49,494 nucleotides of DNA from Wenjunlia vitaminophila DSM 41686 (GTDB lineage: Bacteria > Actinomycetota > Actinomycetes > Streptomycetales > Streptomycetaceae). Shown here one piece after another: positions 5,722 through 7,676 of this stretch (the first letter of the stretch is position 1; each line of letters starts with the position of its first letter). The notes beneath the pieces are model-generated. The model was given only the letters and a program-made list of their open reading frames with translations. It was not told the DNA's origin and ran no database searches. Location of the stretch: contig NZ_KB904679.1 of assembly GCF_000380165.1 (NCBI RefSeq), forward strand, positions 1-49,494, in the 5' to 3' direction. Made by a program: the position numbers and the translations under genes.

Positions 5722-6028
5722 CGAATCCTCCGGGGAAACCCCGCCCTCGGGCAGGGGGAACGGACTCCCGCGGAGCAGGGCGGGGAGGGGCGACGCGCCA
5801 CCGGGCGGATCGCCCGTCCGGCCTGGGCGTTCGCCGGACACGCCCTCCCACGGGCGGTGAGTGCCGGTTACCGGCCAGTGCTACTTGACCGTAATACCCC
5901 GCTTCGCCCTGCCCTATCGCCACCGGACCGCCGACCGGTGGAATCACGCCACTGGCTGCGCCCCCTGCTGCCGCGGCCGGGGGACGCAACCGCCCGGCCG
6001 GGTGGTCACCCGGGTCCCCGGTATCCGG
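5722..6028. other. Divergent intergenic region between acyl-CoA dehydrogenase and the T-box leader
   Basis: No gene is seen here. It holds the start-proximal sequence of the acyl-CoA dehydrogenase, including its GGAGG. It also contains a palindrome GCCGG-TTA-CCGGC at 5863-5875 that could be an operator for a TetR-type lipid regulator (inference). A relatively AT-rich TTGACCGTAATACC lies at 5885-5898. No complete promoter for the minus-strand gene is convincing. Confidence 0.35.
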
Positions 6029-6058
6029 TTGCCGCCCGCGCCAACGCGCCCGTACGCT
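6029..6058 (+). promoter_or_regulatory. Promoter of the T-box transcript
   Basis: TTGCCG (6029-6034) and TACGCT (6053-6058) are separated by 18 bp. Transcription would begin around 6065, only a few bases before the first base-paired nucleotide of the T-box stem I at 6068. That spacing supports both calls. Confidence 0.6.
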
Positions 6059-6067
6059 CCGGGTAAC

Positions 6068-6335
6068 GCGCTGACGGAGACGAGTAGTCACCGGGTCCGG
6101 GCAGGTGGAGAGAGCCGCCGGTAGCTGGGAAGGCGGACCTGCCCCTGGTGGCGAAGACCCTCCCGAGTGCGGGGAGGAACGGCACCGATGCCCAATGCCC
6201 CGCCGGCCGGCCCCCGTCACCGGGCCCGTCGAGGCCGCCGCCCGTCACGGCGGCGGCGAAGGTGCGGTGGTACCGCGAGTTCCCCTTCTCGCCCGCACTC
6301 CCAAGGGATCACCACGCGCTCACCCGAGGACTGTG
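6068..6335 (+). promoter_or_regulatory. T-box riboswitch leader, Asp (GAC) specifier
   Basis: Stem I is complete. The base helix is GCGCT 6068-6072 with AGTGC 6166-6170. A GA-type kink (GAC/CG) comes next, then GGAG 6076-6079 with CTCC 6160-6163. The specifier loop has the S-turn AGTA (6083-6086) on its 5' side and GAC (6156-6158) at the specifier position on the 3' side. Above it, CACCGG 6089-6094 pairs with CTGGTG 6145-6150 and GGGCAGGT 6099-6106 with ACCTGCCC 6137-6144. The AG bulge GGAGAGAG is at 6107-6114. CCGCC/GGCGG closes the distal loop GGTAGCTGGGAA (6120-6131). Stem III is 6234-6254 (7 bp). The T-box GGTGGTACCGCG is at 6266-6277. Alternative pairing GTGCGG 6262-6267 with CCGCAC 6293-6298 could compete. 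No U-tract is seen, so control is probably at translation, as in actinobacterial ileS T-boxes (inference). Uncharged tRNA should switch the gene on. Confidence 0.9.
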
Positions 6336-7676
6336 ATGATCTCCCCGAAACCCATCCCCACCCTCCCCGTCCCCTTTCCCCGAACCCTGGCCGCGGAGCT
6401 CACGGCACGGATCGGTCGGCAGGTGACCCTCAAGGGCTGGCTCCACCGCAAGAGGGTCTTGAAGTCGGTCGCCTTCCTCGTCCTGCGGGACCGCTCCGGG
6501 CTGGCCCAGGCCGTGCTCTCCGAACCCCGGGCCGTGGCCGCGCTCTGTGCCCTGCCCGAAGAGACCGTCCTGCAGGTCACCGGCACCGCGACCGCACGGG
6601 CCCAGGCCCCCGGCGGAGTCGAGGTGACCTCCCCGACCGTGTCCGCCCTGTCCGGGCCGGCCGCGCCTCCGCCGTTCGACCTCTACCGCCCCGTGGTGCC
6701 CGCCACGCTGCCGACCGTCCTCGACCACGCCCCCGTCGCCCTGCGCCACCCGCTGCTGCGGGCCCCGCACACCCTCGCCGCGGCGTCGGTCGCCGGCTTC
6801 CGGGCGGCGCTGGACGCGCTGGGCTTCACCGAGATCCACACCCCGAAGGTGGTGGCCTCGGCTACCGAGTCGGGCGCCAACGTCTTCTCCCTCGACTGGT
6901 TCGGCCGCACCGCCTACCTCGCCCAGTCACCGCAGTTCTTCAAGCAGGCCATGGTCGGTGTCTTCGAGCGCGTCTACGAAACGGGCCCGGTGTTCCGTGC
7001 CGAACCCCACGACACGGCACGCCACCTGGCGCAGTACACCTCCCTCGACGCCGAACTCGGATTCGTCGCCGACCACCACGACGTCATGGCCGTGCTGCGC
7101 GAGGTCCTCGCCGTCATGACGGCGACGGTGGAGGAGCGGGCCGGCGAGGCCTGCGCGCTGCTGGGCGTCACACCGCCGGAGGTCCCGGAGCGCATCCCGG
7201 TGCTCCACTTCGCCGAGGCCCAGGAACTGCTCGCCGCCCACACCGATGAGGACCCCCGCGGCGAGCCGGACCTGTCCCCGGCCCACGAGCGGTGGCTGTC
7301 CCGGTGGGCGCTGCGTGAGCACGGCAGCGAGTTCCTCTTCGTCACCGGCTATCCGATGGCCAAGCGCCCCTTCTACACCCATCCCGAACCCGGCAGGCCG
7401 CAGTACTCCAACAGCTTCGACCTGCTCTTCCGCGGCCTGGAACTGGTCACCGGTGGCCAGCGCCTGCACCGCCACGAGGACTACCTCGCCGCCCTGTCGG
7501 CCCGTGGCGAGTCACCGGAACCGTATGCGGGGTACCTCGCCGCCTTCCGACACGGCATGCCCCCGCACGGCGGCTTCGCCCTGGGCCTGGAACGCTGGAC
7601 CGCCCGCCTCACGGCGGCCGACAACGTCCGTCGCGTCACGCTGTTCCCACGCGACCTGCACCGTCTCACTCCCTGA
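6336..7676 (+). CDS. aspS2: Archaeal-type (probably nondiscriminating) aspartate-tRNA(Asp/Asn) ligase
   Basis: Class II synthetase charging tRNA-Asp and possibly tRNA-Asn with aspartate, for later amidation by GatCAB. The 446-aa length fits the archaeal/AspRS2 form, not the ~590-aa bacterial AspRS. An N-terminal OB-fold anticodon-binding domain covers about 1-105. Motif 2 contains FRAEPHDTARHLAQYTSLD. The active-site motif KRPFYTHPEPGRPQYSNSFD and motif 3 (GLERWTARL) follow. ATG 6336-6338 has GAGGA five bases upstream; an in-frame extension upstream would run through the leader RNA. It is expressed as a single gene behind the T-box, whose GAC specifier agrees with aspartate. An AsnRS-like role is the alternative. 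It may be a second, inducible enzyme beside a housekeeping AspRS elsewhere. Confidence 0.85.
   Translation: MISPKPIPTLPVPFPRTLAAELTARIGRQVTLKGWLHRKRVLKSVAFLVLRDRSGLAQAVLSEPRAVAALCALPEETVLQVTGTATARAQAPGGVEVTSPTVSALSGPAAPPPFDLYRPVVPATLPTVLDHAPVALRHPLLRAPHTLAAASVAGFRAALDALGFTEIHTPKVVASATESGANVFSLDWFGRTAYLAQSPQFFKQAMVGVFERVYETGPVFRAEPHDTARHLAQYTSLDAELGFVADHHDVMAVLREVLAVMTATVEERAGEACALLGVTPPEVPERIPVLHFAEAQELLAAHTDEDPRGEPDLSPAHERWLSRWALREHGSEFLFVTGYPMAKRPFYTHPEPGRPQYSNSFDLLFRGLELVTGGQRLHRHEDYLAALSARGESPEPYAGYLAAFRHGMPPHGGFALGLERWTARLTAADNVRRVTLFPRDLHRLTP

Follow-up and report, generated by a model that had tools for sequence, protein, structure and literature searches.

The stretch of DNA analysed here (the window, 49,494 nucleotides of Wenjunlia vitaminophila DSM 41686) carries aspS2, a gene for an archaeal-type aspartyl-tRNA synthetase (AspRS) that stands alone between an acyl-CoA dehydrogenase gene on its 5' side and an unassigned open reading frame on its 3' side, both on the opposite strand. 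The ATG start codon was picked by Shine-Dalgarno (SD) sequence and frame. The predicted product scores 535.7 bits against NF003483 (aspartate--tRNA(Asn) ligase; cut-off 353) and 346.4 bits against TIGR00458, slightly below the cut-off of 368.4, and its closest solved relative (1n9w/3kfu, 388.9 bits) is named AspRS 2, non-discriminating and archaeal-type. The residues His37 and Pro92 of aspS2 are also found in 1n9w, which we take to be the Thermus thermophilus enzyme, while 3nel, presumably from Thermococcus, has Trp and Lys there. We assume these to be the positions that are said to govern tRNA discrimination; since a plasmid-encoded AspRS with Asn and Lys in their place (P0002) still passes TIGR00458, they were given no weight. 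A search of the genome (111 contigs, 99.21% complete) found three PF00152 genes, the family of the class II Asp, Lys and Asn synthetases: aspS2, a main AspRS of bacterial type encoded elsewhere (TIGR00459, 701.3 bits) and LysRS. No AsnRS was found among these three, and gatC is present in the genome. Extra AspRS genes in Actinomycetales that lack AsnRS have already been noted (PMC4206432); the two mentions of T-boxes in that paper fall in its reference list.

The region directly upstream of aspS2 aligns with the whole T-box model of Rfam (RF00230, 1-219 of 219), a full-length match covering window positions 6062-6299 on the forward strand. Its score is 48.3 bits, with an E-value of 1.5e-9 in an E-value scan of 5900-6500 (601 bases) against all Rfam families and of 3.7e-9 in a search of the organism's own genome. 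As 48.3 bits is half the curated gathering cut-off of 93, and a gathering-threshold scan of the whole window returned zero T-box matches, annotation at the curated threshold would overlook the leader. The gathering score is a curation threshold and not an anatomical feature; taking the empty scan as absence of a T-box was dropped, given the strong E-value scan. Minimum-energy folding of the leader alone did not yield the T-box fold (z -1.46). The only other RF00230 match in the genome (E up to 0.001) lies in the ileS leader, is confined to stem I and is likewise below the cut-off (40.9 bits). The sequence-only reading had placed a full T-box leader with an Asp specifier at 6068-6335, ahead of a free-standing archaeal-type aspS. 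This holds up on the Rfam match, whose extent reaches slightly further 5', on covariation and the uniform GAC specifier in orthologous leaders (see below), and on the protein family; the stem I, AGTA, AG bulge, distal loop, GAC, stem III and T-box that it listed can all be read in the sequence and the alignment. We consider it highly probable that a T-box riboswitch responding to tRNA-Asp precedes aspS2. The K-turn, AGUA and predicted distal tRNA-elbow module of stem I fit in sequence blocks and covariation. The stem II helix covaries; of a possible S-turn there (GAA...AGUA), the GAA is kept, and the AGUA appears in the Micromonospora rows but reads AAUG in the window. The CCGUCA element is named F-box-like here, a label and role that are putative. 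The features are collected in Table 1.

Table 1. Features of the aspS2 locus (window positions) and the ileS T-box of the same genome; helices and promoter are predicted.
Feature	Position	Strand	Basis or remark
Promoter: -35 TTGCCG (6029-6034), 18-nt spacer, -10 TACGCT (6053-6058)	6029-6058	+	
Stem I, full-length type: K-turn region, AGUA/specifier loop, AGAGAG bulge, distal loop	6067-6169	+	Rfam, alignment, covariation
AGUA	6083-6086	+	Sequence and alignment
Specifier GAC (Asp)	6156-6158	+	GAC in 80/80 leaders
Stem II, CGGGG/CCCCG closing helix	6170-6202	+	100% of cells paired; two-sided changes in 2/5 pairs
Stem IIA/B region with F-box-like CCGUCA	6203-6233 (limits approximate)	+	CCGU(C/G)A in most alignment rows
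Stem III	6234-6257	+	Two-sided changes in 7/9 pairs; 92.6% of cells paired
Antisequestrator A1 + A2	6262-6298	+	Both helices 100% of cells paired
A1, GUGCGG/CCGCAC	6262-6267 with 6293-6298	+	
T-box bulge UGGUACC	6268-6274	+	
T-box base N = U	6271	+	Expected wobble with tRNA-Asp G73
A2, GCGAG/CUCGC	6275-6279 with 6288-6292	+	
Helix X, A2-loop CCCUU (6283-6287) with AAGGG (6303-6307)	6283-6307	+	4 nt past A1
Helix Y, GGGAUCA (6305-6311) with UGAUCUC (6337-6343)	6305-6343	+	Encloses SD, covers start codon
aspS2, archaeal-type AspRS, non-discriminating type by similarity	6336-7676	+	NF003483, 1n9w
ileS T-box	L002 1501-1596; own genome C18:117395-117490	-	AUC specifier

To place the leader among its relatives, 80 aspS2 loci were taken, the top-ranking 80 among 408 confirmed stretches and hence close relatives, all from Actinomycetota by their titles. 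A T-box sequence lies upstream of aspS2 in 79 of them. The exception, a metagenome contig (L019), has no T-box upstream and was excluded from all later counts, which refer to 80 leaders, the 79 relatives plus the window. Covariation was assessed in an alignment of 52 of these leaders against a structure that we read from the window. Pairing is possible in 97.8% of 2175 cells and falls to 46-52% when partners are slid by 1-3 columns; two-sided changes occur in 20 of 42 pairs (2-7 in the slid controls), and none of 500 shuffles reaches any of five covariation measures. RNAalifold gives 54 pairs, 30 with two-sided changes. Helices A1 and A2, which flank the 7-nt bulge, show compensatory changes, with one A2 pair appearing as C-G, G-C and A-U across leaders. 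It is possible that the T-box has decayed and is functionless in W. vitaminophila, as its score lies below the Rfam cut-off and a C follows the specifier where the Rfam consensus has a purine. However, the conserved blocks are intact, 16 orthologous actinomycete leaders matched by Rfam score likewise low (34-70 bits), 7 further leaders with a T-box sequence are unmatched at E 0.01, and, where the specifier was read by pattern (76 leaders), the base 3' of GAC is C in 40 cases and A in the other 36. We regard decay as exceedingly improbable.

The identity of the tRNA is indicated by the specifier, which is GAC in every one of the 80 leaders (76 by pattern; L015, L020, L053 and L082 by eye) and in each fits the regulated gene, aspS2. 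In both T-boxes of this genome a single base separates the specifier triplet from the lower helix that follows: the loop reads GAA-GAC-C in aspS2 and GAA-G-AUC-A in ileS, with AUC at the equivalent place. This position corresponds to the priority frame in the TBDB account (PMC7778990). A motif search for the specifier, GAAGACMCTCCYGAG, also gave matches apart from aspS2 in 4 of 15 genomes (L137-L140), with no T-box there; these look like chance, since a reversed control pattern gave 5 matches in the same 296 genomes (the even sample below).

Among the 80 leaders, the base N of the UGGN sequence is C in 65, U in the other 15 and never A or G. Its state changes at least seven times on a quick aspS2 tree in which long branches meet, so that any ancestry it suggests for the forms from clostridia and plasmids would be tentative. 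Both tRNA-Asp(GUC) genes found in the genome have G73, as does its one tRNA-Asn gene; 52 of the 57 tRNA genes were read, and the remaining five, at 82-85 nt, have the length of Leu and Ser tRNAs. With N = C or U and G73 in tRNA-Asp, C pairs and U wobbles, so that the UGGU of the window would be able to pair with the NCCA end of tRNA-Asp through a U-G73 wobble. The N = U of the window, which had been flagged as odd for tRNA-Asp, is thereby explained and no longer speaks against this tRNA. The same wobble occurs in 46% of Trp T-boxes in TBDB (PMC7778990), and a clostridial Asp T-box (L171) likewise has N = U. Another tRNA might still be the ligand, either tRNA-Asn, for whose charging the enzyme type is named, or, since specifier frames slide in some T-boxes (PMC7778990), a tRNA reading the +1 or -1 frame (ACC for Thr, AGA for Arg). 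The N = C of 65 leaders calls for G73, and GAC occupies the priority frame in all 80. As the tRNA-Asn of this genome also has G73, only the anticodon excludes tRNA-Asn. Such alternative ligands appear very improbable, and tRNA-Asp remains the preferred one.

The promoter proposed earlier to place the transcription start at the base of stem I (Table 1) is supported by a near-fixed distance in the relatives: of 79 leaders, 74 have their best -10-like hexamer beginning 28-31 nt 5' of the AGUA anchor. The 5' anchor is wrong in L038, L041, L052 and L070, and at least L041 is thereby a miss in this count. The mean promoter score is 8.4 versus 2.6 in letter shuffles (sd of shuffle means 0.4), the score and its shuffles both being ad hoc. 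A generic sigma-70 scan found no promoter at the leader. The transcript would thus be expected to begin at about 6064-6066, where stem I has its base.

How widespread the arrangement is was estimated from an even sample of 296 Actinomycetes genomes, 28 of which carry an archaeal-type aspS above the NF003483 cut-off. A T-box lies upstream in 18 of these 28, in 11 by Rfam (window included) and in 7 by the T-box sequence and its complementary strand only (G058, G071, G119, G148, G198, G264 and G272, with the specifier motif shown in G071 alone). The Asp T-box on aspS2 is thus not unusual in actinomycetes, contrary to what had been supposed. We found no prior report of an actinomycete aspS2 Asp T-box in the open-access literature, and an earlier listing is possible; a survey (PMC2494555) gives 32 T-boxes for Actinobacteria, in 12 of the 19 genomes examined, and 18 in Symbiobacterium. 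No T-box was found upstream of the other 10 aspS2 genes (G007, G081, G101, G130, G174, G183, G192, G218, G242 and G266; loci L148-L157). None of these reaches 450 bits against the family model, and every one of the 18 with a T-box scores at least 452, the two lowest of the 18 and that of G007 being partial family matches. Nine of the 10 belong to one protein family (f31), which also contains the aspS2 of G148, a gene with a T-box. The split in score and family indicates that the T-box accompanies a subfamily of aspS2 rather than each aspS2.

At which level does the leader act? No terminator-like site was found in 5850-6450, and the leader runs directly into the SD (GAGG, 6326-6329) and the AUG. 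The lack of a detected terminator sets it apart from two clostridial Asp T-boxes on aspS (described below) and argues that the expression platform is probably translational rather than transcriptional. Conceivably, transcription ends early, through Rho or an intrinsic terminator that lacks a U-run, as long as no uncharged tRNA-Asp is bound. A full-length stem I is general among transcriptional T-boxes in the review of PMC7583486, and the two clostridial aspS relatives carry an Asp T-box followed by a stem and U-run. However, the absence of a terminator-like site in the interval searched, the direct continuation of the leader to SD and start codon, and pairing with the start codon in excess of that in shuffles all make a transcriptional T-box unlikely.

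This pairing with the start codon, helix Y, is the candidate sequestering element of a translational platform. At least six contiguous pairs, in any register, are possible in 65 of 80 leaders (21.8 expected; mean z -1.78), and we propose that they sequester the ribosome-binding site (RBS). Helix Y is absent from 15 leaders, 10 of them from Micromonospora and the rest from Kutzneria, Segeticoccus and others. On the coding side, in 46 genes starting with AUG-AUC-Ser codon 3 is UCU in 29, a triplet that accounts for 7 of the 881 remaining Ser codons, and codon 4 is CGU in 33 of 35 Arg codons, compared with 94 of 1697 Arg codons elsewhere in these genes. Because CGU at codon 4 is enriched as well as UCU, the bias at codon 3 was not taken as proof of helix Y, part of which may be explained by start-proximal codon bias. 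A plain anti-SD helix (helix Z, the 3' strand of A1 with the SD) was considered as the general platform and rejected (mean z -0.24; z < -1 in 22.5% of the 80). It is prominent in Segeticoccus L082 and in 4 of the 10 Micromonospora leaders, where helix Y is absent, is also notable in a few others (e.g. L014, L027, L048 and L050) and does not stand out in the window (z 0.4).

A second candidate, helix X, pairs the A2 loop with AAGGG shortly past A1. At least five contiguous pairs are possible in 76 of 80 leaders, with 4.3 expected from letter shuffles, and the linker to A1 is 4 nt in 70 of 80. In the 52-leader alignment, 98.5% of its cells are paired and 2 of 5 pairs show two-sided changes; the inner pairs change from U-A to G-C in 6 and from U-A to C-G in 3 of the 52, all Micromonospora, and U-A to G-C is also seen in Sphaerisporangium (L015, L020). 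Of the conserved elements found, only the putative helix X would link the tRNA-binding end to the start codon. Since X and Y both use AAGGG, only one of them can form fully, and A1/A2 do not overlap helix Y and are compatible with it in plain secondary structure. Under ordinary T-box logic helix X must therefore form together with A1/A2. This is sterically strained and a real difficulty, since the linker of 3-4 nt must span A1 with A1 intact. The tRNA end stacks on A1 in solved complexes (PMC7583486), so that A2 could lie off the axis of A1, and its loop may reach. Energy models that ignore pseudoknots give no clean switch. With A1/A2 forced, opening the RBS costs a mean of 10.9 kcal/mol over the 80 leaders; constraining the X strands as well gives 9.2, and leaving out A1/A2 gives 12.0. 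The window (11.9, 9.1 and 8.4 in the same order) does not keep the mean order, so that the model is not favoured by it.

Given these elements, it is appealing to propose that uncharged tRNA-Asp would bind GAC through its anticodon and UGGU through its 3' end, stabilising A1/A2. With A1/A2 held, the A2 loop CCCUU would take AAGGG, AAGGGAUCA could not fully pair with the start-codon region and aspS2 would be translated. When tRNA-Asp is charged, A1/A2 would not be held, AGGGAUCA would close over AUGAUC and translation would be off. The enzyme would then serve as a reserve that is produced whenever the main AspRS fails to keep tRNA-Asp charged. It is likely that, as a whole, the leader is a T-box sensing tRNA-Asp charging that controls a second, archaeal-type AspRS, and we have still more confidence that uncharged tRNA-Asp is the ON signal. 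That the coupling runs specifically through helix X is a tentative suggestion, and slightly more tentative still is the idea of a new platform in a long-stem-I T-box, in which an A2-loop pseudoknot with AAGGG unzips a start-codon hairpin instead of freeing an anti-SD. The logic could also be inverted, with tRNA-stabilised A1/A2 excluding helix X and allowing helix Y, so that uncharged tRNA-Asp turns translation off. Plain sterics would favour this, as X requires a linker of 3-4 nt across A1, and A1/A2 with Y is the predicted fold of the 3' part of the window. However, the linker, nearly constant at 4 nt, suggests joint formation of X and A1, 4 of 10 Micromonospora show an anti-SD pairing overlapping A1 (z < -1), which points to the normal logic, and to our knowledge all known T-boxes are turned on by uncharged tRNA. 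An OFF signal is thus very unlikely, and activation by uncharged tRNA-Asp is the reading we retain.

Translational T-boxes have reportedly been described by Sherwood in 2015 for actinobacterial ileS. Such T-boxes in actinobacterial ileS, mostly with a shortened stem I, are described in PMC1262725 and PMC7583486, and a few translational T-boxes retain a long one (PMC7583486). Like the actinobacterial ileS T-boxes (Seliverstov et al., 2005; PMC1262725), the aspS2 leader has an aminoacyl-tRNA synthetase target, an apparent action at the level of translation, and A1/A2 with UGGN. Unlike them, it has an Asp rather than an Ile specifier, a full-length stem I, an AGAGAG bulge and a distal loop, and in most leaders a start-codon hairpin rather than a plain anti-SD; the shortened stem I without an elbow module (class II, ileS type) is not what is found here. 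The pair at the foot of A2 differs as well. It is G-C in 52 of 52 aspS2 leaders (6275 with 6292 in the window; alignment columns 264/282) and, read by eye, G-U in the organism's own ileS T-box; a G-U at this foot is a steric aminoacyl sensor in the review account (PMC7583486).

The closest parallel comes from clostridia. Paraclostridium bifermentans (L172) and Acetoanaerobium noterae (L171) carry Asp T-boxes on plasmid-collection records, with the loop GAAAGACA and scores of 119.5 and 107.4 bits, above the Rfam cut-off. The aspS2 leader shares with them GAC, a long stem I, an archaeal-type aspS, N = C or U, and G-C at the A2 foot (by eye in both); it differs in lying below the Rfam cut-off and in having no terminator found, whereas the clostridial T-boxes are followed, by reading, by a stem and U-run. 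In L172, a second antiterminator-terminator lies at 1290-1470 after the Asp T-box, in front of the plasmid-borne archaeal-type aspS. The long-stem-I aspS2 T-box may derive from a transcriptional ancestor. Five of eight plasmid-collection aspS loci have a T-box match; those of Subdoligranulum, Macrococcus and Rhodococcus have none. The last (L168, Rhodococcus sp. JS3073, 1.39-Mb plasmid) carries an aspS2 that belongs, at 60% identity, to the lineage with the T-box. On a linear plasmid of Streptomyces sp. NBC_01724 (NZ_CP109170.1, L175), an actinomycete-type Asp T-box at 2211-2446 (80.6 bits) includes AAGGGAUCA, with UGAUCC at the start, and precedes a divergent archaeal-type AspRS that is 36.4% identical to the aspS2 product of the window and has Asn and Lys in place of its His and Pro. 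Thus, an Asp T-box leader of the same kind can precede a different AspRS, and the L175 leader has apparently been exchanged between AspRS lineages. The T-box of the Clostridium acetobutylicum transamidation genes, gatCAB among them, reportedly responds to tRNA-Asn and to tRNA-Glu (work attributed to Saad, 2012 and 2013). The aspS2 leader resembles it in standing upstream of an extra AspRS gene and would differ in its GAC specifier and single gene. One of the three aspS genes of C. acetobutylicum is T-box regulated in the survey cited above (PMC2494555).

Taken together, the Asp T-box in front of this second AspRS gene is real and conserved, and its ligand and its mode of switching are proposed from the sequence. 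None of the actinomycete aspS leaders scored here reached the standard Rfam threshold, which therefore missed their T-boxes. In these leaders a long stem I, usual in transcriptional T-boxes, is joined to a probably translational platform, and since the same sensor would have two outputs, a terminator in clostridia and a start-codon hairpin in actinomycetes, the two can be compared directly. The finding suggests that the patchily distributed second AspRS of actinomycetes is an inducible reserve under the control of tRNA-Asp charging, and that natural products directed against AspRS should induce aspS2.
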